This document shows positions 1 through 11,934 of a stretch of 11,934 nucleotides of DNA, one piece after another. Positions within the stretch are counted from its first letter, which is position 1; each line of letters starts with the position of its first letter. Made by a program: the position numbers and the translations under genes. The DNA comes from Candidatus Bathyarchaeota archaeon. GTDB taxonomy: Archaea; Thermoproteota; Bathyarchaeia; TCS64. The notes beneath the pieces are model-generated. The model ran no database searches. It was not told the origin of the DNA and saw nothing but the letters and a program-made list of their open reading frames with translations. The DNA is taken from NCBI GenBank assembly GCA_016934355.1, contig JAFGTA010000181.1, positions 1 to 11,934 on the forward strand. Direction: 5' to 3'.

Positions 1-239
1 CCGAGCGCCATGCCCAGGATGGGCCCGAAGAGCACCATTATCTGGTTGAACGAGAAGCTCATCATCGCCCCTGAGAAGATGAAGTTGAAGCTCGCGTCGG
101 CGTTGTTCTTAATGTAATCCACTCCCTGGTATGCGGCGAGCGCCGAGAGTAGGACCATGAACCCGAACAGTATCAGGAACCGCTTGCTCCCGAACTGGTC
201 CTTAAGCTCCTTGGCGGCCACGGTCATCGTGCCGGCCAT
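1..239 (-). CDS. ABC-2 type transporter permease, N-terminal fragment
   Basis: This is the first 79 codons of a membrane protein cut off by the left window edge. The translation begins MAGTMTVAAKELKDQFGSKR, a basic amphipathic start typical of ABC-2 permeases. A hydrophobic first membrane segment follows (about residues 21-40, FLILFGFMVLLSALAAY), then a short polar loop and the start of a second hydrophobic stretch rich in Met, Phe and Gly. The ATG directly abuts the TAG stop of the ATPase gene. A strong ribosome site (GGAGGTGAG, 252-244) lies just ahead of it, inside the end of the ATPase gene, so the two are translationally coupled. With the ATPase it should form a membrane exporter; the substrate is unknown. 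Calling it a permease rests on the N-terminal style and on gene order, because the diagnostic C-terminal part is outside the window. Confidence 0.8.
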   Translation of the reverse strand, partial: MAGTMTVAAKELKDQFGSKRFLILFGFMVLLSALAAYQGVDYIKNNADASFNFIFSGAMMSFSFNQIMVLFGPILGMAL

Positions 240-1178
240 CTAGCTCACCTCCCTGTAGTACTTCATGAATATCTCCTCGAGGGTGTACTCCTTGGGCTTC
301 ATCATCAGTATCGTCGACCCGTGCCGCGTTATCGTCTTCGAGACCTCTGCGTCGCTCTCGACGCCGTTGTAGACGTACAGATGGTCGTTCTCATGTGTCA
401 CGGAGTTGACGCCTTCGAGGGACTCAAGTTCCTTTATGAGGTCGGGTGTTACGTCTGTGAGCCTGAACTCGACGCGCCTGTCCTCGCCGCCTGTCATCGT
501 CTGGTTCAGGTTCTTCATCGTCTCCTTCAGGACCAGCCTGCCCCTGTTGATGATCCCTATCCTGTCGCAGGTCATCTGAACCTCGTGCAGCAGGTGGGAC
601 GTCATCACAACTGTGAGGCCCTGCTCCTTCCTGAGCCTGAGGATGAGGTTCCTTATGTCCAGGGTCCCGATGGGGTCTAGCCCGAGGGTCGGCTCGTCGA
701 GGAACACCACCTTCGGGTTCTTCATCATCGTCGACGCTATGCCTACCCTCTGCTTCATGCCCCTTGAGAACGACTCGTACTTCGCGTCGACCCAGTCGGA
801 CATGCCGACTATCTCGAGGGTCTCGTGGATTCTGTTCTCACGCTCCTCCTTCGGCAGGTCGTTCAGCTGCCCGATGTAGTCCAGGTTCTCGAAGGCCGTC
901 AAGTCCCCGTACAGGCTGCTGTACTCGGGGAGTATGCTGGCTACGCTCCTTATCTCCCTGGACTGTTCAAGGACGTCGAAGCCGCCGACGACGGCGGTCC
1001 CCGACGTGGGCACGGATAGCCCCATAAGCATGAGGACCGTCGTGGTCTTCCCGGCGCCGTTCGGGCCTAGGAAACCGAATATCTCTCTTTGCCCGACTTC
1101 TAGGTCCAGCTCGTTGACAGCCGTGAAGTCTCCGTACATCTTCGTAAGCTTGGATGTCTCAACTACGTATTCACTCAT
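240..1178 (-). CDS. ABC-2 type transporter ATP-binding protein
   Basis: This 312-residue protein is a complete ABC ATPase of the ABC-2 (NatA/DrrA/CcmA-like) exporter class, which drives a separate permease from the cytoplasmic side. Walker A is GPNGAGKTT (38-46), the signature is SRGMKQ (138-143) in place of LSGGQ, Walker B is VVFLDEP (157-163), the D-loop is LGLD (165-168) and the switch histidine is H195. The Q-loop position carries Glu (LPEYSSLY, E85) instead of Gln, a variation known in this class. Residues 230-312 are the accessory C-terminal domain usual for these exporters. The gene is the middle one of three. Its ATG lies 5 bases after the stop of the NEW3 protein, with a GGAGGT ribosome site (1191-1186) overlapping that stop, and its own stop abuts the permease start. 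The substrate cannot be read from the sequence. Confidence 0.95.
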   Translation of the reverse strand: MSEYVVETSKLTKMYGDFTAVNELDLEVGQREIFGFLGPNGAGKTTTVLMLMGLSVPTSGTAVVGGFDVLEQSREIRSVASILPEYSSLYGDLTAFENLDYIGQLNDLPKEERENRIHETLEIVGMSDWVDAKYESFSRGMKQRVGIASTMMKNPKVVFLDEPTLGLDPIGTLDIRNLILRLRKEQGLTVVMTSHLLHEVQMTCDRIGIINRGRLVLKETMKNLNQTMTGGEDRRVEFRLTDVTPDLIKELESLEGVNSVTHENDHLYVYNGVESDAEVSKTITRHGSTILMMKPKEYTLEEIFMKYYREVS

Positions 1179-1183
1179 TTATT

Positions 1184-2941
1184 CTACCTCCGTTTGAACT
1201 TCCTGAACGCGAACACCGCGCCGACTATCGCTACCGCCGCTACGCCGAGTCCGATGAGCCCCCATGACGTCGAAGCCTTGGCAGTCACCCTCAAATCGAT
1301 CTCGTCTGAATCAAGCTGGTCGCTAGTAGCCTTCATGGTTAGGAGATAGTCGCCTGCGACCGCGTCTGACGGCGTCTCGGTTACGACTGTGAAGGTGGTG
1401 GACTCTCTCGGTGAGAGTGAGTTAACCTGCACCGGGGTGATTGTGGCCTCCCAGTCACTGGGGAGCGTCGCCTCAAGGTATAATGTGGTTATCGCCGTCT
1501 GTCCGTTGTTGGTCACTCTGGCTGTGTAGGTTACGGTGCCTCCTATAGTGACCGAGGTATAAAGCGTTGAGAGTTCGAGGGTAAGCTCATAGGAGCCGGA
1601 AACGCTGATGCCGAAAGGCAGCACAGTGTGTGACCCGTCGTCCGAGGCGACCACAACCTGCAGCTCGTAGTTACCTGTGGCGACGGATTTCGGTGGCTCG
1701 ACCTCTATGTCGAAGGTGATTGACTCACCTGCCCCGATGAGGAGGTTCGACACCGCGATGTCGCCTGTGATGAACTCTGTGTTCCAGTTATCGGGTGCCG
1801 AGAGCACGGTGAGGAGGCAGACAGCGTCTTTCTCCCCTGTGTTCCACACCACTATTGGGAATGTGATGCTGTCTCCAGCCTCCACAGTGACATCGCTGAA
1901 GGTGCTGATGACTTCCAGCTCGCTTTTAGGTTGACGAAGGTTCACCTCAAAGATCAATGTGTCACAAACGTTATCGTTCGTATCAACAGCTTGAACAGCT
2001 ATGCTATAGTCGCCGACTACCGCGTCCTCAGGGTGCTCCAGTTCTATGGTCAGCGACTCTGTCTCGTCCGATGACAACGATAGGCTCTTCACCACGATCC
2101 CTGAGCTCGTCTTGTAGCTGACATCCCATCCCGAAGGAGCCTCTGTCTGGAAAGTGATTAGCTTTGTGACTTCCCCGACGTTGGACACCCTGAGGGGCAG
2201 CTCGATTCTCTGCCCGAGCTCCTCTGAGACCGAAGGATATGTTGACCTTAACTCGATCTCGTTTGCACTAGCCATGGGCGTGATTGTAAAGCCTAGAGAC
2301 GCTTCCGAGGTGCCTGAAGCCATCAAAGTTATAGTCTCGGTCTGGGAGGCAGTCGAAGGCACCTTGACCTCCAGAGTGTAGCTCTCTACGCCCGGAGAAA
2401 GCGAGATCGACTCTATCTTCCCCAGCGAGTCGAGGACCCTCGTGCCCCAGCCTTCCGGGGCGTCCACCAAGAAGACAACCAGCTCCGTCTCGTCGTTAAG
2501 GTTGTTGACCGTGAAGGATAGAAGTAACGTATTCCCCGGCGAGGTTATGCGTTTTACCACCGAGGCTGTGAGCTTCAGCGTGTATTCCATCATGACGTCT
2601 GTCAGGATCACGTCGTAGTCTGGCTTCGTGCTCGGAGCCGTTGTTACTTCGACGTCTACTTCAGTCGTGGCGTACCCCGTCTTCTCGAAGACCAGGGTGT
2701 ACGAGCCTCCGAGGGACATGCGGAAGTACCCGTCCTCCTTTGTGTACTTCGTGGCTTCGACGTACCCTGTCCTGGTGACTGCCGAGACCTTCGCATCGTA
2801 TATCGGGTCTCCATTGGCGTCGACGACGGTTCCGTGGATGTTACCATCAGAGACTGCCGAGACCAGTTGGGTTGTGGTGTACGAACCGACGCAGATGACT
2901 ATGGCAACCAGTAGCGTTATCAACTTGTTTCGTTCAGACAT
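1184..2941 (-). CDS. Membrane-anchored extracellular protein with carboxypeptidase-regulatory-like and four NEW3/Ig-like domains
   Basis: Numbering is from the upstream GTG (2950, 588 residues). A signal segment (about 8-33) is followed by a CarboxypepD_reg-like beta-sandwich (about 36-103, with GTVVDANGDPIYDAKV). Four repeats of about 105 residues come next (about 122-226, 230-339, 343-451 and 453-558). Each has a Y/F-x-S/T-V start, a V-x-N-x-G or N-N strand, a W-containing loop (PEGW, PSGW, PDNW, PSDW) and an xxGDY or related late strand, as in NPCBM-associated NEW3 domains. A C-terminal membrane helix (561-583) ends in the basic tail KFKRR. The topology is therefore a long outward-facing rod held by its C terminus. 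I prefer the ATG at 2941 (585 residues), because GTGA just ahead of it can act as a ribosome site, but the GTG at 2950 is possible. It is the first gene of the ABC-2 operon, and such proteins often accompany ABC-2 exporters in archaea. A role in docking or cargo handling is inference. Confidence 0.85.
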   Translation of the reverse strand: MSERNKLITLLVAIVICVGSYTTTQLVSAVSDGNIHGTVVDANGDPIYDAKVSAVTRTGYVEATKYTKEDGYFRMSLGGSYTLVFEKTGYATTEVDVEVTTAPSTKPDYDVILTDVMMEYTLKLTASVVKRITSPGNTLLLSFTVNNLNDETELVVFLVDAPEGWGTRVLDSLGKIESISLSPGVESYTLEVKVPSTASQTETITLMASGTSEASLGFTITPMASANEIELRSTYPSVSEELGQRIELPLRVSNVGEVTKLITFQTEAPSGWDVSYKTSSGIVVKSLSLSSDETESLTIELEHPEDAVVGDYSIAVQAVDTNDNVCDTLIFEVNLRQPKSELEVISTFSDVTVEAGDSITFPIVVWNTGEKDAVCLLTVLSAPDNWNTEFITGDIAVSNLLIGAGESITFDIEVEPPKSVATGNYELQVVVASDDGSHTVLPFGISVSGSYELTLELSTLYTSVTIGGTVTYTARVTNNGQTAITTLYLEATLPSDWEATITPVQVNSLSPRESTTFTVVTETPSDAVAGDYLLTMKATSDQLDSDEIDLRVTAKASTSWGLIGLGVAAVAIVGAVFAFRKFKRR

Positions 2942-2978
2942 TTTTTTCACTTGGATTGATTTTACATGGCTGAAACAG

Positions 2979-2984
2979 TATTAA
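2979..2984 (-). promoter_or_regulatory. TATA-like box of the NEW3/ABC-2 operon
   Basis: On the minus strand the sequence reads CTTAATAC (2985-2978), with core TTAATA. A GAAAA stretch lies a few bases upstream where a BRE would sit. A start about 25-27 bases downstream would fall near 2955, giving a leader of roughly 14 bases before the ATG at 2941. The same CTTAATAC octamer occurs in the promoter at 3931-3938. Confidence 0.5.
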
Positions 2985-3002
2985 GCGATTTTCCCATATT
3001 AC

Positions 3003-3026
3003 ACCCAAATCTGATCAAAATTGGGT
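3003..3026. promoter_or_regulatory. Candidate operator, copy 1 (TGATCA-centred palindrome)
   Basis: This is a 24-bp inverted repeat centred between 3014 and 3015, with 10 of 12 base pairs symmetrical (mismatches at 3009/3020 and 3011/3018). The minus-strand left arm reads ACCCAATTTTGATCA. It lies in the 105-150 base gap between the membrane-protein gene and the NEW3 gene, 18 bp upstream of the TTAATA core of the NEW3 operon promoter. It matches copy 2 (3890-3913); with flanks, 26 of 30 bases agree (2999-3028 against 3886-3915). A site upstream of the TATA box fits an activator better than a simple blocking repressor. The likely ligand is the winged-helix protein encoded at 3498-3821 (inference). 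Confidence 0.65.
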
Positions 3027-3054
3027 AGGGTCGTGAAGCTCTAGGAGACTTGGG

Positions 3055-3501
3055 CTATGTCTTACTGAGGTACACCATGATGAGCGCCGCGAGGGTGGCG
3101 AAGACGTCCGGTATGAAGTTGAACACGCTCATCCAGATAGGGTCTCTTCTCCATGAGTACAGCAGGATGACAGGGTTGCTAGAGACGGAGTATATGAGCA
3201 GCGCAATGGAGAGGGCTGTCAGGCCCAAGCTGAACTTGGACTCGTTTTCCCTGTATAGCCTTATGTAGAAATAGGTGAGGTAGCCGTAGAGGAGGATATT
3301 GACTGAGGAGACTACGACCCTGCCCGTTATGAACATCTCTATCCTCCTCTCGAACTCTCGTAGTGTAGCCGGGTCCGTCTCGTTGAACCTAGGCTTGAAC
3401 ACGGGGGGGTCCCCGGGCCGGTGTTGGGCCTGCGTCGCAGCTAGTTGAGTGGCTACCGCAGATAGAATGACCAGTAATAACAACGCCCTGTACTTCCTCA
3501 T
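3055..3501 (-). CDS. Small membrane protein paired with the winged-helix regulator
   Basis: This 148-residue protein has a signal-like N-terminal hydrophobic segment (about 6-23), an outward loop (24-60) rich in Pro, Arg and Glu, and three membrane helices (about 62-82, 91-115 and 122-145). The last part contains SSNPVILLY and FNFIPDVFATLAALIMVYLS. From memory, the NP...IPD pattern resembles small membrane proteins encoded next to HTH regulators in other archaea. No catalytic or phosphotransfer residues are evident. Its ATG overlaps the TGA of the upstream regulator gene (ATGA, 3498-3501), so the two are made together. A role as membrane sensor or anti-regulator for the DNA-binding partner is an inference from this coupling. 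I do not recognise a named family with certainty. Confidence 0.8.
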   Translation of the reverse strand: MRKYRALLLLVILSAVATQLAATQAQHRPGDPPVFKPRFNETDPATLREFERRIEMFITGRVVVSSVNILLYGYLTYFYIRLYRENESKFSLGLTALSIALLIYSVSSNPVILLYSWRRDPIWMSVFNFIPDVFATLAALIMVYLSKT

Positions 3502-3821
3502 TGCTTCTCCTCCCTATCCAGCTTCTCCCTCATCTGGCCCCAGACCTCCTCGAATATCCCCAGGTTCTCCTCCAGCTTCTGTGACGTGAAGTACATCCTG
3601 CCGTACCTGTTGCCTGTGGACGTGATGAGGTCGTTGTCCTCAAGCACCTCCAGATGATGCTTCACCGTCCTATAGTCAAGGTTCAACGTGATCCTGAGCT
3701 GGTTGGTGTTCATGGGTTCCTCACGCAGGGCCTCGATGATCCGCCCCCTATTAGCGCCCCCCCTAGTCCCCGTGAACAGCCACAGGAGTAGGTGTTTGAG
3801 GGTACGCTTAGGGGGTGCCAT
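3498..3821 (-). CDS. Winged helix-turn-helix transcriptional regulator (ArsR-like)
   Basis: From the ATG at 3821 this is a 107-residue DNA-binding protein. The core is RGRIIEALREEP (helix 1), MNTNQLRITLN (helix 2), LDYRTVKHHLEVLEDNDLI (recognition helix) and a wing, STGNRYGRMYFTS. A C-terminal helix, EEVWGQMREKLDREEKQ, suits dimerisation. The fold is that of archaeal ArsR/MarR-type one-component regulators. No metal-binding cysteines are visible. The frame stays open up to a TTG at 3905 and has another ATG at 3851, but the best TATA-like box (3855-3860) puts the transcript start near 3832, so the ATG at 3821 is chosen. It is the first gene of a pair with the membrane protein. Near-identical palindromes lie upstream of its own promoter and of the neighbouring NEW3 operon, making it the obvious candidate to bind them. 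Confidence 0.88.
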   Translation of the reverse strand: MAPPKRTLKHLLLWLFTGTRGGANRGRIIEALREEPMNTNQLRITLNLDYRTVKHHLEVLEDNDLITSTGNRYGRMYFTSQKLEENLGIFEEVWGQMREKLDREEKQ

Positions 3822-3854
3822 CTGGGATGAACCACTGGTATCTAACCGCATTGC

Positions 3855-3860
3855 TATTAA
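3855..3860 (-). promoter_or_regulatory. TATA-like box of the regulator/membrane-protein operon
   Basis: The minus strand reads GTTTTAATAGC, with core TTAATA at 3860-3855. A start about 25-27 bases downstream would lie near 3832, leaving a leader of about 10 bases before the ATG at 3821. The core is separated from operator copy 2 by 29 bp (3861-3889), 11 bp more than in the two other promoters, about one helical turn. Confidence 0.45.
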
Positions 3861-3889
3861 AACTCTAGTTAAGGGTATGTCCAGTTTAC

Positions 3890-3913
3890 ACCCAATTTTG
3901 ATCAAAATCTGGT
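3890..3913. promoter_or_regulatory. Candidate operator, copy 2 (TGATCA-centred palindrome)
   Basis: This is a 24-bp inverted repeat centred between 3901 and 3902, with 10 of 12 pairs symmetrical (mismatches at 3894/3909 and 3893/3910). The central 14 bases ATTTTGATCAAAAT are perfectly symmetrical. It sits between two divergent promoters: the regulator operon on the minus strand (TTAATA core 29 bp away) and the secreted Met-rich protein on the plus strand (TTAATA core 18 bp away). One bound dimer could therefore act on both. Its left arm, ACCCAATTTTGATCA, is identical to the minus-strand left arm of copy 1. Confidence 0.68.
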
Positions 3914-3930
3914 AGAAGCTTGAAAAACCC

Positions 3931-3938
3931 CTTAATAC
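3931..3938 (+). promoter_or_regulatory. TATA-like box of the secreted Met-rich protein gene
   Basis: The octamer CTTAATAC is identical to that of the NEW3 operon promoter, and a GAAAA stretch lies upstream in both. The TTAATA core (3932-3937) is 18 bp from operator copy 2, the same distance as at the NEW3 promoter. Expected transcription start is near 3961, directly at the GAGGTGA ribosome site. Confidence 0.5.
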
Positions 3939-3977
3939 GGTGCCGGCGCATGGCGCTCGTGAGGTGAAAAAACCCGA

Positions 3978-4490
3978 TTGAATAAAAACAGAAAGGCTCT
4001 GGCACTGACCTCGGTGCTGCTCCTGACGCTCACTATCGCCGTAGGAGGCCTGTACCTAGCGTCCGCTGATGCCGGCGAAGACGACGCCACAAGTTCTGAC
4101 CCTCCCCAAGGCTGGCTTCGCCCACGAATGGGCGGCCGCATGATGGGCTCCCTAGACGAGGAGCTGAGGACCGAGCTCATGGACACCGTCCAGGCGATGA
4201 GTGACGAAGGCGCAACACGAGAGGAGATCGCCGAATACGTTAAGAGCTTCCTGGAGGAGAATGGGGTCGAGCCGTGCCCTCAGCTATCCGAGGAGCAGCT
4301 TGAAGCCATGCAGCAGCTGCGTGAGGACGTGGAGGCGTACGCCGAGCAGAGAGCCGAGGAGCTGGGGATCGAGCTGCCACCGATGGGTTTCTTCGGAGGC
4401 GGCCGCATGGGGTCCAGCCACGGTCCTAGGATGGGCTTCGGCTTCCGCGGACAACGAGGAGCCTGCAGCCCAGAAGCACAGGAAGGCTGA
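3978..4490 (+). CDS. Small secreted Met/Gly-rich protein, weakly Spy/CpxP-like
   Basis: This 170-residue protein starts at TTG, chosen because GAGGTGA (3961-3967) lies 10 bases ahead and no ATG in frame precedes the signal peptide. A basic start (NKNRK) and hydrophobic segment (about 7-28) ending near ASADA indicate export. The mature part has an acidic linker, a Met/Gly/Arg patch (RMGGRMMGS, 50-58), two helical stretches (about 59-95 and 103-130) and a Gly/Met-rich tail that repeats the patch as GGGRMGS (140-146). Two cysteines (C100, C163) could form a disulfide. LSEEQ (103-107), opening a helix, recalls the LTxxQ motif of Spy/CpxP/ZraP periplasmic proteins, but the match is weak. Met-rich patches can bind Cu(I)/Ag(I); that is only a possibility here. 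It shares promoter architecture with the NEW3/ABC-2 operon. The family is not recognised. Confidence 0.8.
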   Translation: MNKNRKALALTSVLLLTLTIAVGGLYLASADAGEDDATSSDPPQGWLRPRMGGRMMGSLDEELRTELMDTVQAMSDEGATREEIAEYVKSFLEENGVEPCPQLSEEQLEAMQQLREDVEAYAEQRAEELGIELPPMGFFGGGRMGSSHGPRMGFGFRGQRGACSPEAQEG

Positions 4491-4622
4491 AGCAGCCAAC
4501 CTAGCTTAACCCGCCCCCAATTTTCTATTAAGCGAGTATCACGCTATGTGGATTAATCCTAGAAACCGTTGCAGATTGGATCAGATGATAAGTTCAGTAG
4601 GGTTGTTGGATCGGGCATATGC
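4491..4622. other. Convergent spacer between the secreted-protein gene and the second ABC operon
   Basis: This is 132 bases with no gene. The plus-strand stretch AATTTTCTATT (4519-4529) is the only T-rich element and could end the secreted-protein transcript. An AGCG/CGCT pair with a 7-base loop follows (about 4531-4545), a weak stem. No clear T-run serves the minus-strand operon, which ends at 4623. Confidence 0.3.
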
Positions 4623-5516
4623 TCAGTGAACGATCCCGAGCTTGTTAAGTTCCTCCCGGAGAACCTCCATTGTGTTCTTCAGTCGGGTCTGCCTCTCGAC
4701 GTACTCGTCTCCCGTCATCGTCCCTGCCTTGAACTGGCTGTCGAGGCCCGCGAGGGTGGCGTCGAGCTCCGTGATACGCGCCCTGAGCATCTCGCCGTAG
4801 TCGGCTGGCCTCCCCTCCTCCGTCGTGGGCGCCACGTCGGCCTGCACGACTCCGTCGTGCATCCTTAGTATCCTGTCGGCGATCCTTGCGATGCTCGGGT
4901 CATGGGTTACCATCACGACGGTCTTCCCCATCTCTTGGTTAATCTTCCGCAGGTACTGTACCACGACTCTGGCGTTCTCCGTGTCGAGTTCACCCGTAGG
5001 CTCGTCCGCCAGTATCAGCGGCGGGTCGTTTGCCAGCGCGGCCGCCAACGCTATCCTCTGCTGCTCGCCTCCGCTGAGCTCACCCGGCTTATGATTCATT
5101 CTATCCCCTAATCCGACAACGCCTATGAGCTCGCTGCACCGACGCTTCCTCTCAGCCTCCTTGATCCCTAGGGCCGCCATGGGGAGCTCCACGTTCTCCC
5201 GGGCGGTCAACGTGGGGATGAGGTTCATGTTCTGGAAGATGTGGCCCACCGTGCCTCGGCGGAAGCTAACCAGTTCCCCTGGGTTTAGGTTGGTGAGGTC
5301 GGTGTCGAAGACTCTGACTGTGCCTGCCGTAGCCCTGTCGAGGCCGCCTATGATGTTGAGCAGGGTGGACTTGCCGGAGCCCGACGGCCCTATGAGGGCC
5401 ACCATCTCGCCCTTCCTGACGTTCATGTTGAGGCCCCTGAGGGCTTGGACCTCTATCTTTCCCAGCTTGTATATCTTAAGCAGGTCCCTAACGATTACAG
5501 CGTTTCTCTTACTCAT
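4623..5516 (-). CDS. ABC transporter ATP-binding protein, LolD/MacB class, with C-terminal helical extension
   Basis: This 297-residue protein is the ATPase partner of the FtsX-like permease upstream. Walker A is GPSGSGKST (43-51), the Q-loop FQN (Q95), the signature LSGGEQQR (147-154), Walker B LILADEP (167-173) followed by TGELD (174-178), and the switch histidine H205. The LNPGELVSFRRGTVGHIFQ stretch and TGELD are typical of the LolD/FtsE/MacB branch. That branch works by mechanotransmission on lipoproteins, peptides or envelope complexes rather than classical import. The core is about 225 residues; residues about 237-297 add two predicted helices (ITELDATLAGLDSQFKAG and a second ending LREELNKLGIVH), a short SHOCT-like hairpin found on some archaeal relatives. 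ATG follows the permease stop by 3 bases, with GGAGG (5528-5524) inside the permease end. It is clearly co-transcribed; the substrate is unknown. Confidence 0.94.
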   Translation of the reverse strand: MSKRNAVIVRDLLKIYKLGKIEVQALRGLNMNVRKGEMVALIGPSGSGKSTLLNIIGGLDRATAGTVRVFDTDLTNLNPGELVSFRRGTVGHIFQNMNLIPTLTARENVELPMAALGIKEAERKRRCSELIGVVGLGDRMNHKPGELSGGEQQRIALAAALANDPPLILADEPTGELDTENARVVVQYLRKINQEMGKTVVMVTHDPSIARIADRILRMHDGVVQADVAPTTEEGRPADYGEMLRARITELDATLAGLDSQFKAGTMTGDEYVERQTRLKNTMEVLREELNKLGIVH

Positions 5517-5519
5517 CCT

Positions 5520-8261
5520 TTATTCCTCCAGCTTCAAGTCGGGGGACGCGGATATCCCCCTCACAGCCACTATGATGGGCGCCACCGTCGATACCAGAAG
5601 CAGCGCCACTATGATAAGCAGGCTCGTCTGGGCGTATCCGGGGAAGACGACGCGCCTCTGTATGGCCGTCGCCAGCACCTGATTGAACAGTTCGACCTGC
5701 CCCCTCAACGAGACGAAGCCCACGGCGCCGCCCAGGGCGATCGCCAGCAGGTCCATGCCCACGTTCTCGAACAGTAGGCTCATAGCCATCTGGCTTGGAC
5801 TGTAGCCTCTAATAGACATGATAGTGAGCTCCTTGATCCTGCTCCTTATCAGCGTCGAGACGATGAGCGCAACGCCGAGACTGGCCACGAGGCCGGCGAA
5901 GTAGGCACCCAGCTCCTCAACGCGCCTCGGTCCCGCCAGATAGATATTGCTCAAGGCCTTGTCGAGCTGCAGCGCCGTAACGTCGACCCTCTCGATGTCC
6001 GAGTCCAGTGACTCCACTTGCTCCTTGAAGGCCGCGAGGTCGACGTAGTCGGCGAGGTCGACGATCATCCTGCGCTTCTCGATGAACTTCTCCTTCACGT
6101 TGTCCAGGAAGCCTTGATTCACATAGATGGTGGGGTTCTGCAGGGTCCACAGCTCGCCCGGCTCCTTGCCGTAGAGGCCGACGATCCTTATGGGGTAGAG
6201 CTTGCTCTGTAGCTTAACTAGGGCTGTGTTGTTGACTCCGATGCCCAGTGCCTCGGCTGCGCCCCTCTCCATGATGCCTGACTGAGTGTCCCTCGCCATG
6301 GCTTCGAAGGCAGCCGGATCTACCCAGTCGAGCTCGATGTACGCCGCCTCCTTCCACTCTAAGGGGTCTATTGCTCTGATCGGCGTGTCGCCGAGGCTCG
6401 AGACTGGGGTGAAGTGCGTCTCGTTGGCGATGGCCAGCACGCCATCAATCGCCGCTATACGGTCCTTGAGACTCTGTACATCGTCTCCTTCGAAGAGCCA
6501 AACGGATGCATCGGCGCCTATGGTGAACCTGACGGCCTGCTCCATGAAGTCTGTGGTGCTCGCGACGTTGCCGATGACGGAGACGCTGTAGCTCATGATG
6601 AGGGCAACCATGAACGTTGAAGCGGCGACCCTCTTCAGGTTCCTCCCAGAGCTTAGGGCGCTGAACCTCGCTGCGTCACCTGACACCACAGAGGCCAGCC
6701 TGCCGAGCATTGTAATGGAGCCTGGTATGAACTTAAGGAAGAGTTTGATGAAGCCCCAGAACAGAAGCACAGGCGCTATGAAGCCGAGGAGGTAGTCAGT
6801 GCCCCACCACGTGGAGTAGAGCAGGTTCACTATGAGGTTGCCTGCCTCAGGCTTGAACTGGTCCACCGTAAGCCCCAGGAGCAGCATCCCTATCTTGTAG
6901 GCGCCGAAGACGAAGGCGATGAGGGCTGTCTGCCAATCACCCAACCCGTCCTCCTCGTCACTTTGGTGCTCCTTGAGGGCGTCCACTATTGTGATCTGTG
7001 TTGCCTGCTGAGCGGGCTTGTAGACCGCCAGCAGTGAGAGGACTGTGCTGAAGGCGAGGGTGGCCCCGAGGGTGATGGGGCTGACGCTTCTGAGTACATC
7101 GAGGAAGCCCATCCCGGGGATGACTAGCACCAGTATACCAGCACCCGCGAGGACGCCGACAACCGAGGCGAGTGCGCTGACCATCAGTCCTTCGAATATC
7201 AGTATGTAGAGCACCTGCCTATGATCCATACCCCGCGTGAAGAGGAGCCCTATCTCCCTGCGCCGTAGGTTGAACACGACGTCCGAGACGGTCATTCCGA
7301 GGTACCAGGCGCAGAAGAACACAGGTAGAGCCACCAGTATGGTGCTGGTCTTCATCTGGCTCGACAGCTCGGATATGGTGTTCAGCAGCTCCCCGAGGTA
7401 GCTCCGTGGTAGGTAGTAGTACTCGGCGCCCTCGGTGTTAATATTCTCGAAGATGAGCTGCAGCCGGTCCGAGGAGCCCTGTATGTCCCACGGGTTGATA
7501 AGTTGCTCCCGGTCCAGTGTGATGAGCGCCTCGGTGGTCTGGTCCTGGGTTGGGCGCCTCATCTCCTTGAAGACGGGTTTAAGCATGCCGATGAGGGTGT
7601 CCTCAGTCATGAGTATCAGGTTATACTTGGGGCGGCGCGACAACTCCTCCCTACCCTGTATCAGGTCTCGGAGGAAGATGTTGTATCTGCTAGTCCCGAT
7701 CTTGAACGCCCTCTCGTTGAGCCCCACGGACCCCGCCACCGTGTAGTTGAACGATCTGTACTCGAACCCCGGCGGGTTGAAAGGCATGTACGTGTTGAAA
7801 ATGATGGTTAGCGGGTCGCTGGCTAGCATCTCGGTTGCGTTCGTGGAGCTTGCGTCGATGTAGATTACGCCGTCTTCCATCACGCCATCGATGTTCATCC
7901 CGTCATATAGGGACGAGTCGCTTGGGAGGGCTAGTACCGACGCCTCGATGGTCGCGTTTACCGCGGTAGAGTTTAACATCACTCCCCACCTGATGAAATG
8001 GTCGACCTGCCTGACGCCGTCCACCTGGCTGAAGAGTTCGTCCACTTCAAAGTAGTGGGTCTTCGTGACGTTCTTGTCGGGCGCGCTGCTAATTATGTCC
8101 ACGTAAGCCGTCTCGAGAGTCTCGTCGAGGATGGCCACCCCTATCGCGTCTGCACCTTGGAGTATGCCACTGAACAGCGTCGCTGCTAGTGCTACGCTCA
8201 GAAAAAGAGACAGGAATAGGCCTCGGCCTCGGGTTATCCTTTTTACAGCGTAGCTGAACAT
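5520..8261 (-). CDS. FtsX/MacB-like ABC transporter permease, 10 membrane helices
   Basis: This 913-residue membrane protein has an N-terminal helix (about 15-35) and a large outward domain (about 36-303). The first FtsX core has helices at about 305-328, 350-381 and 396-414. A middle block of three helices follows (about 444-465, 488-512 and 548-567), then a second outward domain (about 570-785) and the second FtsX core (about 786-806, 828-851 and 879-901). The cytoplasmic loops NLRRREIGLLFTRGM (331-345) and RSRIKELTIMSIRGY (806-820) are the usual coupling sites between permease and ATPase. The duplicated arrangement resembles the single-chain permeases (LolC/E-, YbbP-like) in which one polypeptide supplies both half-transporters. 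It is the first gene of the operon, and its ATPase follows by 3 bases. A TTTTTTTAAAC box about 30 bases upstream suggests a nearly leaderless mRNA. Cargo is not deducible; export or envelope remodelling is likely. Confidence 0.92.
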   Translation of the reverse strand: MFSYAVKRITRGRGLFLSLFLSVALAATLFSGILQGADAIGVAILDETLETAYVDIISSAPDKNVTKTHYFEVDELFSQVDGVRQVDHFIRWGVMLNSTAVNATIEASVLALPSDSSLYDGMNIDGVMEDGVIYIDASSTNATEMLASDPLTIIFNTYMPFNPPGFEYRSFNYTVAGSVGLNERAFKIGTSRYNIFLRDLIQGREELSRRPKYNLILMTEDTLIGMLKPVFKEMRRPTQDQTTEALITLDREQLINPWDIQGSSDRLQLIFENINTEGAEYYYLPRSYLGELLNTISELSSQMKTSTILVALPVFFCAWYLGMTVSDVVFNLRRREIGLLFTRGMDHRQVLYILIFEGLMVSALASVVGVLAGAGILVLVIPGMGFLDVLRSVSPITLGATLAFSTVLSLLAVYKPAQQATQITIVDALKEHQSDEEDGLGDWQTALIAFVFGAYKIGMLLLGLTVDQFKPEAGNLIVNLLYSTWWGTDYLLGFIAPVLLFWGFIKLFLKFIPGSITMLGRLASVVSGDAARFSALSSGRNLKRVAASTFMVALIMSYSVSVIGNVASTTDFMEQAVRFTIGADASVWLFEGDDVQSLKDRIAAIDGVLAIANETHFTPVSSLGDTPIRAIDPLEWKEAAYIELDWVDPAAFEAMARDTQSGIMERGAAEALGIGVNNTALVKLQSKLYPIRIVGLYGKEPGELWTLQNPTIYVNQGFLDNVKEKFIEKRRMIVDLADYVDLAAFKEQVESLDSDIERVDVTALQLDKALSNIYLAGPRRVEELGAYFAGLVASLGVALIVSTLIRSRIKELTIMSIRGYSPSQMAMSLLFENVGMDLLAIALGGAVGFVSLRGQVELFNQVLATAIQRRVVFPGYAQTSLLIIVALLLVSTVAPIIVAVRGISASPDLKLEE

Positions 8262-8282
8262 CTCTTAACCTTGTCCGAAACG

Positions 8283-8294
8283 TGTTTAAAAAAA
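8283..8294 (-). promoter_or_regulatory. TATA-like region of the FtsX-type ABC operon
   Basis: The minus strand reads a long T run then TTTAAACACG, centred near 8289. A start 25-27 bases downstream would be at about 8263, right at the ATG (8261). This predicts a leaderless or nearly leaderless transcript, consistent with the lack of a good ribosome site (only AAGGTTAAG is present). Confidence 0.4.
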
Positions 8295-8400
8295 TATGCC
8301 AAATTCTTTTCAGAATCTCCTCATGCAGAAAAATATTACTCTTAGACGTGTTTTCACGGCTGAACCGGGTCGAAAAAAGGCTCTCCCTTTTATACTAACA

Positions 8401-8408
8401 TTTATATC
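8401..8408 (+). promoter_or_regulatory. TATA box of the DUF1512 operon
   Basis: TTTATATC is a good archaeal TATA element. Initiation about 26 bases downstream would be near 8430, giving a leader of about 9 bases before the ATG at 8439. A second A/T element, TTTTATACTAA, ends just upstream (about 8388-8398) and could serve instead. Confidence 0.5.
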
Positions 8409-8438
8409 GGCTGCTCTGATACCAACAGCAGTGATTTA

Positions 8439-9542
8439 ATGTCGCTGCTTCAGCCTGACAACGAGATCGGAGTAATCCTGCAGACGCTCTTCAGCGTCGC
8501 TTTCATGGTGTACTTGGTCTACGCCCAGCGAATCCAGGCCATGACGATGCTACGTCAGATAGAGGCTACACTCCGCAAGATCAAGGGTCTCAAAGACAAG
8601 GGCAAGAATACGTCAATAGAGGCCATCAAGGAGATAGGGAAGCCTGAGAGAGACCCCACACCCATGGTGGAGAGGTTCATGGAGCACTTCATGATAGAGC
8701 CCGTGAGCATGGACCCCGCCGGAGTAGTCGGAAAGCTCGGGAAAATACTCAACGTCAGGGAGTTCACCTTCGAGAAAGAAGTCGACGCGATGGCGCCCAA
8801 CGCCACCGATGCCGAGAAGAACAACATCGAGAACCTGCTCGAGGCGTCGCTGGCTCTCAACATCTTCTACAAAGTCATCAGGCACTACTACCTGATGGGC
8901 AAGAAGACCATGAACATCTACATCATCATGCAGATCCACATGATCCTGCCCCTTATACTTCAGCAGATCGAGGCGTACAGTGCCGCGTTACAGGCATTCA
9001 GAGACGGCATACCCATCGGAGACAGCGTCGGCCCGATTGTGGCAGCCAAGCTGCTCAACGGGGCCGAGACACGGGAGGTAGCCAAGGAGATGGTGGCTGG
9101 CGAGATCGAGTTCGAGGGGCGCCGAGTCATAGTAACCAAGGCCCTCGGACCAGGCGGCAGCGTAGGTAAACCGGGGGATGCGGTAACTAACCTACTCAAC
9201 GAGAACAAGGGCAAGGTGACCATGCTCATCACAGTGGACGCGGCTGGCAAGCTTGAGGGAGAGGAAGTCGGCGAGATAGCGGAGGGCGTCGGAGCGGCAA
9301 TAGGAGGGCCAGGCGTCGAGAAGTACAAGATGGAGCAGGCGGCAATGGAGAACGATGTCCCCATGTTCGCCGTGGCAATCAAGCAGGGCATGGAACACGT
9401 GGTTGCGCCACTCGTGGAGCCTCTGTTCGAGGCGACGGACAAAGCCGTGTCCTCGGTAAAGGGACTCATACTCGACTACAGCAAGGAGGGCGACACGATA
9501 CTAGTCGCTGGCATAGGTAACACCGTGGGGGTAGCGCAGTGA
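8439..9542 (+). CDS. DUF1512 family archaeal membrane-anchored protein
   Basis: I recognise this 367-residue protein as the archaeal DUF1512 family, usually about 370 residues, so it is full length. One membrane helix lies near the N terminus (about 10-29, GVILQTLFSVAFMVYLVYAQ), followed by a basic helical stretch. The large C-terminal domain should be cytoplasmic. Recognisable conserved blocks are a Gly-rich GPGGSVGKPGDAV (237-249), then DAAGKLEGEEVGEIAEGVG (267-285) running into AIGGPGVEKYKME (287-299), and ILVAGIGNTVGV (354-365) near the end. The acidic and Gly-rich blocks look like a ligand or metal site, but no function is established to my knowledge. Start: ATG 8439, with TATA TTTATATC about 35 bases ahead. 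Its TGA overlaps the GTG start of the zinc-ribbon gene, implying a coupled two-gene operon. Confidence 0.92.
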   Translation: MSLLQPDNEIGVILQTLFSVAFMVYLVYAQRIQAMTMLRQIEATLRKIKGLKDKGKNTSIEAIKEIGKPERDPTPMVERFMEHFMIEPVSMDPAGVVGKLGKILNVREFTFEKEVDAMAPNATDAEKNNIENLLEASLALNIFYKVIRHYYLMGKKTMNIYIIMQIHMILPLILQQIEAYSAALQAFRDGIPIGDSVGPIVAAKLLNGAETREVAKEMVAGEIEFEGRRVIVTKALGPGGSVGKPGDAVTNLLNENKGKVTMLITVDAAGKLEGEEVGEIAEGVGAAIGGPGVEKYKMEQAAMENDVPMFAVAIKQGMEHVVAPLVEPLFEATDKAVSSVKGLILDYSKEGDTILVAGIGNTVGVAQ

Positions 9543-9955
9543 AGCGGATGAGCGAGGACACAACGCAGGTAGCGGGAGGCGCATCACAGAACTGGATCAC
9601 TCTCGTCGCCATGATAATCGTCGGCGCACTGGCGCTGGTAAGCCTCTACATGGGGTTCCAGTCATACGGCAACGAGGAGATAGAGATCGCGTTCTTCTAT
9701 ATGATCATAGGGACAGGCGGCTTCATCGCCATAGGCTACACCTTCTTCAGGCCCAAGCCCCCGACTAAGGAGTCCCTAGAGCCCAAGCAGGCCGACGTAA
9801 TAACGACGCTGGAGTGCCCCCAGTGCAACCTTAAACGGGTCAGGGCGTTCCAGAGAGGCGACTACATCTTCAAGGACGACGAGCCGTGCACCCGCTGCGA
9901 GGGAAACATGGTCGTCACCCGGATTCACACCCGGAAGGAAGAGAAGAAGAAATAG
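9539..9955 (+). CDS. Two-helix membrane protein with C-terminal zinc ribbon
   Basis: This 138-residue protein has two membrane helices (about 19-41 and 48-70) with a short polar turn (QSYGNEEIE) between them. A linker with PKPPTKESLEPK leads to a soluble zinc ribbon: CPQC (93-96) and CTRC (117-120), 20 residues apart. A basic tail, IHTRKEEKKK, follows. Four Cys in two CxxC knuckles is a textbook structural zinc site and may mediate protein or nucleic-acid contact at the membrane face. The GTG start at 9539 overlaps the DUF1512 stop (GTGA), and GGGGGT (9527-9532) 6 bases ahead supports it; an ATG at 9548 is the alternative. Coupling to DUF1512 suggests a shared membrane complex. I recognise no named family. 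The stop codon directly abuts the stop of the convergent methionine aminopeptidase gene. Confidence 0.88.
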   Translation: MKRMSEDTTQVAGGASQNWITLVAMIIVGALALVSLYMGFQSYGNEEIEIAFFYMIIGTGGFIAIGYTFFRPKPPTKESLEPKQADVITTLECPQCNLKRVRAFQRGDYIFKDDEPCTRCEGNMVVTRIHTRKEEKKK

Positions 9956-10846
9956 CTAGGCCGTCGTGACTTCGCAGCCGTCACCCGTCACGATGACGCT
10001 GTGCTCGGCCTGAGCGACCTTCGCCCTGGTTTTCTCTATTAGCTGCGGGTAGCCCATGATGCACTTAGAGTCAAGGAGCTCCCTGAAGGATGCCTCGCCC
10101 TCTGGGCCGGGGAAACGCCTCAGAACCCACCTCGACGCGAAGGGGAGGGTGCGGTGCTCCTGCTGGATATGCTTCATCATCTGCTTGGCGGCCCCCTTTA
10201 AGCTGTGCTTCTTCTGCACCCTGTAGATGTTGCTGGGTGGGCCGTCCGTAACCAGCCCCTCGGCGGTACTCGGCACAGCGAAGGGCTCTATGGCGTAGAC
10301 GTCGCCCTCCTGTATCACGTGGTGATCGTGACCAGGGACGTTAGGTATGCTCGCACCCGCGTGCACCACGTACCTGGCGAGCTTGTGGCCCGTGAGGTTC
10401 CTAATCGGTTTAGCGCCTTTCGCCTTGATGGCCTGCTCTATCGCGGCCCCTACGTCGCTTGCCCTTATCCCGGGCCGGATTGTGTTGATCGCCGCGCCTA
10501 GGCCCGCCTTAGCCGCGTCCACGAGGTAGTTTAGGTTGGGGTCGAAGCAGGCGGTGATGGCTGTATCGGCTATGTATCCTTCAACGTGGACGCCAACGTC
10601 CAGCTTCACGAGGGACCTCTCAGGCACGACCGTCGCGTCCACGATGGGGGAGCAGTAGTGGGCTGCCACGTGGTCGATGTCGACGTTGGTGGGAAAAGCC
10701 ATCCTGCCACCCAGCTCCGCCACCATGCCCTCCACCCTATCGCAGATGTCTATTGCCCTGATCCCCGGCCTGATCTCCTCTACGACGGTGTTCCGTACCT
10801 TGGCGGCGATCCTCCCCGCCTCCCTCAGCGCTTCAAGCGGCTCCAT
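9956..10846 (-). CDS. map: Type II methionine aminopeptidase
   Basis: This cytoplasmic dinuclear metalloprotease removes the initiator Met from new proteins whose second residue is small. At 296 residues it has the usual archaeal length. All five metal ligands are in place: D83 (KLDVGVH), D94 (IADTAI), H154 (LTGHKL), E187 (AIEPFA) and E281 (AEHSVIV). The two catalytic-pocket histidines are also present (H63 in VAAHYC, H162 in VVHAGASIPN). The insert with HSLKGAAKQMMKHIQQEHR (about 215-233) and the PFASRWVLRRF segment are features of type II rather than type I enzymes. The ATG at 10846 has no ribosome site in front, so translation is leaderless or the gene is read from the stress-protein gene 54 bases upstream on the same strand. 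It appears fully intact and active. Confidence 0.97.
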   Translation of the reverse strand: MEPLEALREAGRIAAKVRNTVVEEIRPGIRAIDICDRVEGMVAELGGRMAFPTNVDIDHVAAHYCSPIVDATVVPERSLVKLDVGVHVEGYIADTAITACFDPNLNYLVDAAKAGLGAAINTIRPGIRASDVGAAIEQAIKAKGAKPIRNLTGHKLARYVVHAGASIPNVPGHDHHVIQEGDVYAIEPFAVPSTAEGLVTDGPPSNIYRVQKKHSLKGAAKQMMKHIQQEHRTLPFASRWVLRRFPGPEGEASFRELLDSKCIMGYPQLIEKTRAKVAQAEHSVIVTGDGCEVTTA

Positions 10847-10900
10847 AGCACAATCTAGATGGTGTAAGCGATGAAAAAGGGTTGCCCCATAGAGGGGGAG

Positions 10901-11362
10901 TCACTTGACGACTAGTATGGGTTTGGTGCAGGACTCCACTACTCTACGGCTGGTGCTGCCGAGTATCCAGCCTGTGATGCCACCTAGGCCCCTGCTCCCT
11001 ATTACTATTAGGTCGATGCCATCCCCTTCGGCTTCCTCCACGACGACCGCGGAGGGCCGCCCCTCCATGAGCTTCGTGGTCACCTTGAGGTCCGGGAAGG
11101 CCTCCCTAATGTCCTCCTCGGCCTCGGCGAGGCTGGCAGAGTATATGTTCTTCATCTTGTCCTGGTACTCACTCATGTCTTGGGCGGCTGTGATGGGGGC
11201 CGCACCGAAACCTTCGTCAGGGAAGACCGGCATCATCACCCTCGGGACGATGGAGAGTATGAGGAGCTCTGACTTCCACTTGTCCGCGATACTCACGGCG
11301 TGGTCGAGGGCGTGCTTCGACGGCTCCGAGCCGTCGAACGCTACGAGAATCTTCCTGTACAT
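10901..11362 (-). CDS. Universal stress protein (UspA family, ATP-binding type)
   Basis: This 153-residue single-domain USP is a small cytoplasmic dimer related to MJ0577-type proteins. It begins MYRKILVAFDGSEPSKHAL, with the nucleotide-site Asp (D9). Near the end it has the full ATP-binding signature G-x2-G-x9-G-S (G122, G125, G135, S136 in GSRGLGGITGWILGSTS), so it should bind ATP. The last strand is KPILVVK. The segment about 40-70, with a Pro/Met-rich loop PRVMMPVFPDEGFG, is the usual variable insertion. The ATG at 11362 has a strong TATA (TTTATATT) about 35 bases upstream and no ribosome site, indicating a short leader. The methionine aminopeptidase gene follows after 54 bases and may share the transcript. 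The specific stress is not readable. Confidence 0.95.
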   Translation of the reverse strand: MYRKILVAFDGSEPSKHALDHAVSIADKWKSELLILSIVPRVMMPVFPDEGFGAAPITAAQDMSEYQDKMKNIYSASLAEAEEDIREAFPDLKVTTKLMEGRPSAVVVEEAEGDGIDLIVIGSRGLGGITGWILGSTSRRVVESCTKPILVVK

Positions 11363-11392
11363 TTTTTATCGTTGTATTGATGGTCGACGCCG

Positions 11393-11400
11393 AATATAAA
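11393..11400 (-). promoter_or_regulatory. TATA box of the universal stress protein gene
   Basis: The minus strand reads GGTTTATATTCGG. TTTATATT is a strong archaeal TATA sequence. The predicted start is near 11370, about 9 bases before the ATG at 11362. The box lies in a 104-base divergent region shared with the SufC-like gene. Confidence 0.5.
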
Positions 11401-11466
11401 CCGGACAGGTAGCCATATACAGCATCCGGGGTATTTCCTAAAATAACGTACTTGGTGTGTATTCCT

Positions 11467-11934
11467 TTGAGTGAAGCGAACGTACTTGAGATAGAGGGGC
11501 TTCAGGTGAAGGTTGGGGACAAGACCGTCCTTGAGAACATCAACCTGACTCTGGAGTCCGGGCAGAGCTGGCTGATATTCGGCCCCAACGGCTCGGGCAA
11601 GAGCAGCCTCCTGAAGGCTGTGATGGGGGTTCCGCCTTACCGCGTATCCTCCGGGACGATCCGGTTCATGGGGGCTGAGATCAACGGCCTCGGGGTCGAC
11701 GAGAGGTCGAAGCTGGGGATCATTCTTGGCTACCAGTACCCGCCCGAGCTGCACGGCGTCACGCTGAGCCACATGTTGAAGATATGCCTCGGCAAGGTGA
11801 AGGGCGAGGAGTTCAGCGGCGCGGAGATGGAGATGATCGACAGGTTCAACCTGACAGAGTTCCTTGACCGGGACACGAACGTAGGGTTCAGCGGTGGCGA
11901 GCGGAAACGCGCCGAGATACTGCAGATACTGTTC
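11467..11934 (+). CDS. sufC: SufC-like Fe-S cluster assembly ATPase, N-terminal fragment
   Basis: The first 156 codons of an ABC-type ATPase are present; the gene runs off the right edge (SufC is usually about 250 residues). Walker A is GPNGSGKSS (39-47). The Q-loop region reads LGYQYPPELHGV, matching the FQxPxEIPGV style of SufC. The signature, FSGGERKRAEILQ, is nearly the SufC hallmark FSGGEKKRNEILQ, and differs from exporter ATPases. SufC is a soluble ATPase that works with SufB/SufD in assembling Fe-S clusters; archaea often use a minimal SufBC (SMS) version, and the partner gene is expected just outside the window. The TTG at 11467 is preferred because GGTGTG (11454-11459) lies 7 bases ahead; GTG 11455 and TTG 11452 are also in frame. 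Walker B and the H-switch are not in view. Confidence 0.88.
   Translation, partial: MSEANVLEIEGLQVKVGDKTVLENINLTLESGQSWLIFGPNGSGKSSLLKAVMGVPPYRVSSGTIRFMGAEINGLGVDERSKLGIILGYQYPPELHGVTLSHMLKICLGKVKGEEFSGAEMEMIDRFNLTEFLDRDTNVGFSGGERKRAEILQILF

Follow-up and report, generated by a model that had tools for sequence, protein, structure and literature searches.

An 11-bp repeat element adjoining the BRE at promoters around a putative ArsR-like regulator gene and its proposed cell-envelope targets in Bathyarchaeota

The window analysed here is the whole 11,934-nucleotide stretch (positions 1 to 11,934, forward strand) of contig JAFGTA010000181.1, assembly GCA_016934355.1, from Candidatus Bathyarchaeota archaeon. 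The genes of concern are the following, the two small central ones being referred to as HTH and MP.

240..1178, minus strand: ABC ATPase downstream of the NEW3 gene (DrrA-like C-terminus at 22.5 bits, below the 27.4 cut-off)
1184..2950, minus strand: NEW3/CarboxypepD_reg surface protein, a putative target (Pfam NPCBM_assoc 110 bits, CarboxypepD_reg 46.4 bits)
3055..3501, minus strand: MP, a small helical membrane protein of 148 aa whose gene overlaps the HTH gene by 4 bp (homologues at HTH loci; structure model)
3498..3821, minus strand: HTH, an ArsR-like winged-helix protein of 107 aa with the conserved start MAPP (Pfam, homologues, structure model)
3978..4490, plus strand: Met-rich secreted protein of 170 aa, a putative target, Spy-like by eye only (element at its promoter; nine homologues besides itself)

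An ABC-2 operon probably begins with the NEW3 gene. The Met-rich protein matches no family in Pfam or NCBIfam.

A first-pass annotation of this DNA had singled out two near-identical palindromes placed alike before two promoters, and both are present as described. They are 24 bp long, at 3003-3026 (ACCCAAATCTGATCAAAATTGGGT, site 1) and 3890-3913 (ACCCAATTTTGATCAAAATCTGGT, site 2); in each, 10 of the 12 pairs are symmetrical, and they agree at 26 of 30 positions when flanks are included. At both sites 18 bp separate the box from a TTAATA core (that of the NEW3 gene at 2979-2984 on the minus strand, that of the Met-rich gene at 3932-3937 on the plus strand), and both promoters have the octamer CTTAATAC with GAAAA upstream. 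Such a pair was said to be hard to get by chance, and it is: the symmetrised 24-mer, with up to three mismatches, occurs in the window at these two places only, and 200 dinucleotide shuffles of the window gave a mean of 0.00 matches (maximum 0). Site 1 lies between the end of the MP gene and the NEW3/ABC-2 operon, and site 2 between the minus-strand HTH gene and the divergent Met-rich gene; both sites therefore flank the HTH-MP pair, whose presence between the boxes had not entered the earlier finding. The promoter features are listed below; bit scores come from R1, a sequence-only model of a 52-bp element built from 25 sequences.

2977..3026, minus strand: full NEW3 promoter element (R1 43.0 bits; site in the R1 training set)
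2985-2978, minus strand: TATA box CTTAATAC of the NEW3 promoter
2993-2989, minus strand: GAAAA of the NEW3 promoter
3022-3016, 3011-3005 and 3000-2994, minus strand: repeat units of the NEW3 promoter
3003..3026, minus strand: site 1 ahead of the NEW3/ABC-2 operon, with the operator seen as a palindrome (shuffle test; alignment with the relative L001)
3880..3913, minus strand: site 2 read towards the HTH gene, a second and weaker reading (R1 22.5 bits)
3890..3913, plus strand: site 2, palindromic view of the operator (two matches against 0.00 expected; 22 of 24 positions identical in L001)
3891..3938, plus strand: full Met-rich promoter element (R1 44.2 bits; site in the R1 training set)
3894-3900 (AATTTTG), 3905-3911 (AAATCTG) and 3916-3922 (AAGCTTG), plus strand: 11-bp units of the Met-rich promoter
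3922-3927, plus strand: BRE, GAAAAA, of the Met-rich promoter
3931-3938, plus strand: TATA box CTTAATAC of the Met-rich promoter

Relatives of the locus were represented by the best 80 of 540 qualifying stretches with HTH in one genome collection. These 80 are all archaeal, with Bathyarchaeota giving the top matches. Three close homologues (P0003, P0102 and P0019) are, unlike the 80 archaeal loci, labelled as Candidatus Krumholzibacteriaceae bacterium or Deltaproteobacteria, and perhaps come from mislabelled or mixed bins.

In the closest named relative, L001, the gene order and both sites are conserved, and the palindromes are conserved beyond their surroundings, as had been predicted: site 2 is identical in 22 of 24 columns against 87 of 134 in the remaining intergenic region, and site 1 in 22 of 27 columns (3 gaps) against 46 of 96 in the remaining intergenic DNA. 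On the side of site 2 that faces the HTH gene, the block GGGTGTAAACTGGA..CCCTTAACTAG is conserved in L001, as are a third, weaker unit and a TTAACTA box. Locus L002 has a different gene order, yet it too has a site before NEW3 and one between the Met-rich and HTH genes. Genome-wide searches covered the genome of L001 (G001) and samples of classes. Within G001 a degenerate pattern, at up to three mismatches, finds just the two intergenic sites, and R1 finds those two and the HTH-facing reading of one of them. The earlier proposal of a co-regulated set, with a site at fixed spacing upstream of the BRE/TATA, gains from both the conservation in L001 and the scan of G001.

Promoter regions of the relatives, aligned on the GAAAAA run, have a common form: three copies of RATTnTG in 11-bp steps, the third entering GAAAAA, and then TTTAATA. 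For the first alignment 2 of the 80 loci were omitted for short upstream DNA and 78 were examined; a simple anchoring rule left 45 of the 78 without an anchored element, and L008, L030 and the second sites of L001 and L002 were added by hand. Judged from these alignments, each window box forms the distal portion of a longer element made of three 11-bp direct repeats, BRE and TATA. The spacing is nearly invariant, with 120 of 125 aligned matches (near-identical copies counted) free of any indel relative to the model. A site at a fixed distance upstream of the BRE is the layout known from the archaeal activators TFB-RF1 and EarA, and the element would likewise be a binding site.

Direct and inverted symmetry were compared in 40 non-redundant sites, after omission of 2 of 42 rows with an indel. 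The self-match peak at lag 11 is 0.546 against 0.293 in shuffled rows (z 18.0), and the best inverted match is 0.489 against 0.282 (z 9.5); because related sequences were taken as independent and the rows were found by the model, these z values rank the readings and are not probabilities. Without one row taken to lie in coding sequence (L012) the direct and inverted values are 0.539 and 0.493 (39 rows). An earlier set of 30 sites, drawn from the first alignment by leaving out nine of its 39 rows as near-duplicates, second sites or poor anchors, has a z of 14.3 for the 11-bp period. A TGATCA palindrome in the window's register is present in 5 of the 39 non-redundant rows, the window among them; the sixth in the 40-site set, that of L012, stands one unit closer to the BRE and was not counted. 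Inverted symmetry is strongest in these five rows, at 0.733 versus 0.567 for the two distal units matched directly, and the direct repeat is stronger in the other 34, at 0.540 versus 0.456, from which it follows that the palindrome is the two distal units as they appear in the window's clade. The palindrome-based site of the first-pass annotation thus holds for the window and its clade, but the constant feature across relatives is the three-fold 11-bp direct repeat; a strict palindrome was rejected as the general form.

R1 was used to scan 201 genomes of the class of G001; as a genome could offer several thousand candidates and no more than 29 were scored in each, all counts are lower bounds. 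It matches at least 106 of the 201 genomes at E<=0.01 (1-8 matches per matching genome), and at E<=1e-5 at least 102 sites in at least 67 genomes. The HTH profile, at E<=1e-20, finds 105 of the 201; HTH is present in 63 of the 67 element genomes versus 42 of the 134 others (Fisher p 7.5e-19, with kinship ignored and training sites among the 102). Four of the 67 have no HTH match at that threshold, and 42 of the 105 HTH genomes have no site at E<=1e-5 among the 29 or fewer candidates scored in each. As to location, 79 of the 102 sites are within 8 kb of HTH, 43 of them (in 40 genomes) divergent within 400 bp upstream, and the other 23 have no HTH within 8 kb along their contig. The sites appear to be few and mostly local to the HTH gene.

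Beyond this class, none of 80 genomes in the class of a Thermoplasmata locus matches R1 at E<=1e-5 (up to 73 candidates per genome, again a lower bound, and no known positive in the group); taken alone such an empty result shows nothing, and its value as a control rests on matches of the same R1 in other classes. R1 matches 4 of 44 genomes in the class of a Terraquivivens locus, and by coordinates three of the four are the sources of L042, L053 and L065, only L042 being in the training set. The upstream regions of haloarchaeal HTH-MP loci have no such element evident by eye, and R1 at E<=0.01 has no match in one haloarchaeal HTH-MP genome or in two further HTH-locus genomes. Upstream regions of L056 and L015 are somewhat element-like by eye.

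HTH is placed among ArsR/SmtB-type winged-helix proteins by both sequence and fold. In a 117-aa reading it matches Pfam HTH_20 (28.8, cut-off 27) and HTH_5 (24.7, cut-off 22) above the cut-offs, and its predicted structure (pLDDT 90.4) has CzrA as the closest solved fold (E 2.1e-4, TM 0.60/0.66), a CzrA/SmtB-like arrangement. HTH is unlikely to sense metals through cysteines, since its score against the metalloregulator model NF033788 is 30.8 bits, below the cut-off of 55, and none of the 107 residues is a cysteine; an ArsR sensor of that type was rejected on these grounds. The HTH gene, lying between the two sites, probably encodes their regulator, and we hold it likely that HTH is the protein that binds the element.

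MP homologues (tblastn, E<=1e-3) are present in 75 of the 80 HTH loci (the best 80 of 540), haloarchaea included. MP matches no Pfam or NCBIfam family, and five MP homologues scanned for families gave only sub-threshold, unrelated matches; neither MP nor the homologues scanned match an SdpI-type family. The structure model (pLDDT 83.0) has helices at 3-25, 44-86, 89-107, 110-117 and 121-147. A search for its identity by fold was uninformative, with a best match at E 0.14 and mostly seven-helix receptors. MP thus stands for an unnamed family, with a signature of about IYRKTxSxFTLGL...SNP...LGPF..LPDLF, that accompanies the HTH family across archaea. We give even chances to MP being a sensor or tether for HTH, a natural role for a protein encoded beside it, with SdpI as the nearest parallel.

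Most genes that follow the element code for products that are exported or lie in the membrane, namely HtrA-like proteases, MacB/FtsX exporters, NEW3 proteins and two or more kinds of small secreted protein. Pfam identifies Trypsin_2 at L008, L106, L109, L004, L021, L029 and L032 (with a PDZ domain in all except L106), MacB/FtsX at L010, L030 and L020 (MacB core only at L111), NEW3 at L005 and L058, DUF4956 at L116 and Cthe_2159 at L125. The elements before the L021, L029 and L032 proteases score low (22.1, 20.6 and 14.1 bits). No Pfam family was found for the targets of L117, L119, L022, L091 and L093, and that of L048 has sub-threshold matches only; a mechanical search of the divergent side found no exported or membrane gene at L013, L004, L025 and L060 and no reading frame at L017 and L028. 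In a blind count an N-terminal hydrophobic segment is present in 59 of 84 first genes (25 lack it) versus 290 of 974 background genes, reading frames being assigned mechanically with some first genes clearly misjudged, 2 of 86 sites having no frame and L012 being included. Of the 23 HTH-distant sites, 19 were inspected; these precede surface-protein, DUF4956 and MacB genes, and several precede cytoplasmic-looking or non-exported ones. Taken together, the comparisons point to a real, conserved regulatory element that would be part of a compact envelope regulon.

What the comparisons show is the element, its spacing and 11-bp period, its linkage to HTH and MP, and the kind of genes that follow it. 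We think it probable, with some reserve, that both boxes are operators of a dedicated cell-envelope regulon, in which HTH acts from upstream of the BRE and MP relays a signal. The three RATTnTG repeats would share one face of the helix, and the last of them, about a turn away from the TATA box, would run into the BRE; HTH, encoded between the two sites, would bind both, probably as several dimers side by side. HTH would then most likely activate by aiding the loading of TFB or TBP, a mode of action described for TFB-RF1 and EarA, and MP would keep HTH bound or let it go according to the condition of the membrane. We lean slightly towards activation over repression: the repeats stand upstream of the BRE with fixed TATA phasing, and TFB-RF1 and EarA offer an analogy. 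The preference is no stronger because GAAAAA does not look weak and the closest solved proteins are mostly repressors; known archaeal activators act, in the accounts cited (PMC5512572, PMC5937170), on weak BREs, and GAAAAA looks decent.

In the window's clade, where the two distal repeats form a near-perfect palindrome, one operator may serve two divergent promoters. At site 2 the weaker third unit and the TTAACTA box kept in L001 point the same way, and it is possible that the minus-strand reading of site 2, with TTAACTA at about 3869-3876, is the HTH-MP promoter. Site 1, with one promoter only, is equally palindromic.

Judged by the targets, the likeliest signal is envelope stress, though we rate it at slightly under even. 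The more specific reading is a little more tentative again: an archaeal envelope-stress switch composed of an ArsR-like activator and an MP sensor. Acting at an array of direct repeats that spans three turns and is joined to the BRE, the switch would govern an HtrA-type protease, small secreted proteins, and exporters of the MacB and ABC-2 kinds; it would be present in Bathyarchaeota and in certain other archaea, and would take an array-less form in haloarchaea.

It is possible, though somewhat less probable than activation, that in the same regulon HTH is a repressor which hinders TFB at the BRE and is pulled to the membrane by MP on a signal, in the manner of SdpI. The third repeat contacts the BRE, CzrA and most others of the best solved relatives of HTH are ArsR repressors, HTH has a weak match to the SdpR model, and a membrane protein is encoded beside the regulator as described for sdpRI (PMC1626106). 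Against this, the conserved repeat part is upstream of the BRE/TATA, a position described as typical of archaeal activators (PMC5512572), and three phased units would be more than a steric block needs; the score of HTH against the SdpR model NF033789 is 26.8 with a cut-off of 100, and MP and four homologues match no SdpI family. A different and unlikely alternative makes the site a simple palindrome bound by a single HTH dimer, with the likeness of the half-sites giving rise to the 11-bp repeat as a side effect. Inverted repeats are the usual binding sites of ArsR proteins, and since the inverted match exceeds the direct one in the five rows that include the window, a plain dimer on the palindrome fits the window itself equally well or better; the reverse order in the other 34 rows and the conservation of a third, in-phase unit beside the BRE speak for the array.

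Less probable still is that another factor binds the element and that the HTH gene is merely one of its targets. The 23 of 102 sites not within 8 kb of HTH and the 4 of 67 genomes without an HTH match would agree with this, but HTH occurs in 63 of the 67 element genomes and 43 of the 102 sites are directly divergent from it. That the boxes are a chance occurrence, or a copied promoter segment without a regulatory role, is extremely improbable. The sequence GGGTGTAA occurs both in site 1 and in site 2 on its HTH-facing side, as might follow from local duplication; on the other side stand the absence of matches in shuffled DNA, the mere two places in G001, a conservation in L001 that exceeds the intergenic background, and the finding of the element across the class of G001 with 0 of 80 genomes in another class (up to 73 candidates scored in each).

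The activator reading that we prefer likens HTH to TFB-RF1 and EarA by the layout of its sites and the published descriptions of those proteins. TFB-RF1 of Pyrococcus furiosus has been shown to recruit TFB, and EarA is proposed to do so (PMC5937170; PMC5512572, PMC10665913). As far as the cited account goes, the TFB-RF1 regulon likewise has its site at a conserved distance upstream of the BRE/TATA, the gene for TFB-RF1 is inside the operon that it activates, a further target is an ABC-2 operon resembling drug exporters, and the site is conserved across Thermococcales (PMC5937170). That site is, however, described as a 13-nt palindrome, TCTGAANTTCAGA, with a weak BRE (PMC5937170), whereas the window element has three 11-bp direct repeats before GAAAAA, and the HTH regulon differs from the one described in its wider range of target kinds and its neighbouring membrane protein. 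EarA resembles HTH in having repeated sites directly upstream of the BRE, thought to aid TFB recruitment, with four boxed in Methanococcus and one to three in Thermococcales (PMC5512572, PMC10665913). Its motif is TACATA and its target the archaellum operon, and the portions of these papers drawn on here mention no membrane partner (PMC5512572, PMC10665913). By eye the window sites and the consensus differ from both TCTGAANTTCAGA and TACATA repeats.

Membrane-linked regulators offer further comparisons. In the SdpR/SdpI pair of Bacillus subtilis a regulator is likewise encoded with a membrane protein, and the autorepressor SdpR is, by the description cited, sequestered at the membrane by the polytopic SdpI (PMC1626106). 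That pair is bacterial, whereas the score of HTH stays well short of the SdpR cut-off and MP has no SdpI match. ArnR of Sulfolobus is described as an archaeal membrane-linked regulator of surface structures, and to this extent is similar; it has the HTH and membrane segments in one protein, and its boxes are inverted repeats, TCGAC-N5-GTCGA (PMC6396743).

The kinds of putative targets overlap with those of bacterial envelope stress responses: Cpx and sigma-E act on the DegP/HtrA protease, small secreted proteins and transport. The window sites have archaeal promoter signals, unlike Cpx and sigma-E targets, and neither a histidine kinase nor a sigma factor was recognised within the window.

To our knowledge, how archaea sense damage to the cell surface is poorly understood, and since most Bathyarchaeota are uncultured, their regulons are hardly to be found by experiment first. 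Sequence here yields a regulator, a candidate sensor, a site of exact geometry and a list of targets, all testable in vitro. The 11+11+10 bp geometry to the TATA box would be a clean case for studying how an archaeal factor contacts TFB and TBP, and if the envelope-stress reading is true the system is an archaeal functional counterpart of Cpx/sigma-E. Archaeal arrays of regulator sites close to the BRE are already known; new, as far as we have seen, are this array with a membrane partner and this set of targets. Our literature search, with most subscription papers and all bioRxiv preprints outside its scope, returned among the matches listed no account of a regulator of envelope stress in archaea, of an ArsR operator in Bathyarchaeota or of a pair of the HTH-MP type, and no matching paper on direct-repeat activators upstream of the BRE.

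Some further observations concern individual loci. At 4623-8261 the window has a MacB-like ATPase and a large FtsX permease without an element of their own, though relatives often place MacB under the element; with no R1 match near 8261-8439 at E<=10, this operon was dropped as a local target. Weak matches at about 8264-8309 occur in many of the relatives' loci, the L012 row of the symmetry set and the blind count being one of them; they overlap the last part of the reading frame of HTH and were taken as probable coding similarity. At L113 and L115 (genomes G105 and G111) the element, at 45.9 and 41.9 bits, precedes a conserved protein of 77-79 aa with VLSDSYIIAEN or VISDTNIIVEN and no clear hydrophobic segment. 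At L116 and L125 it precedes DUF4956 genes and surface proteins (Cthe_2159 in L125, alike by eye in L116), and at L116 a reading frame that is VTC-like by eye follows; these targets suggest a link to polyphosphate or a surface polymer.
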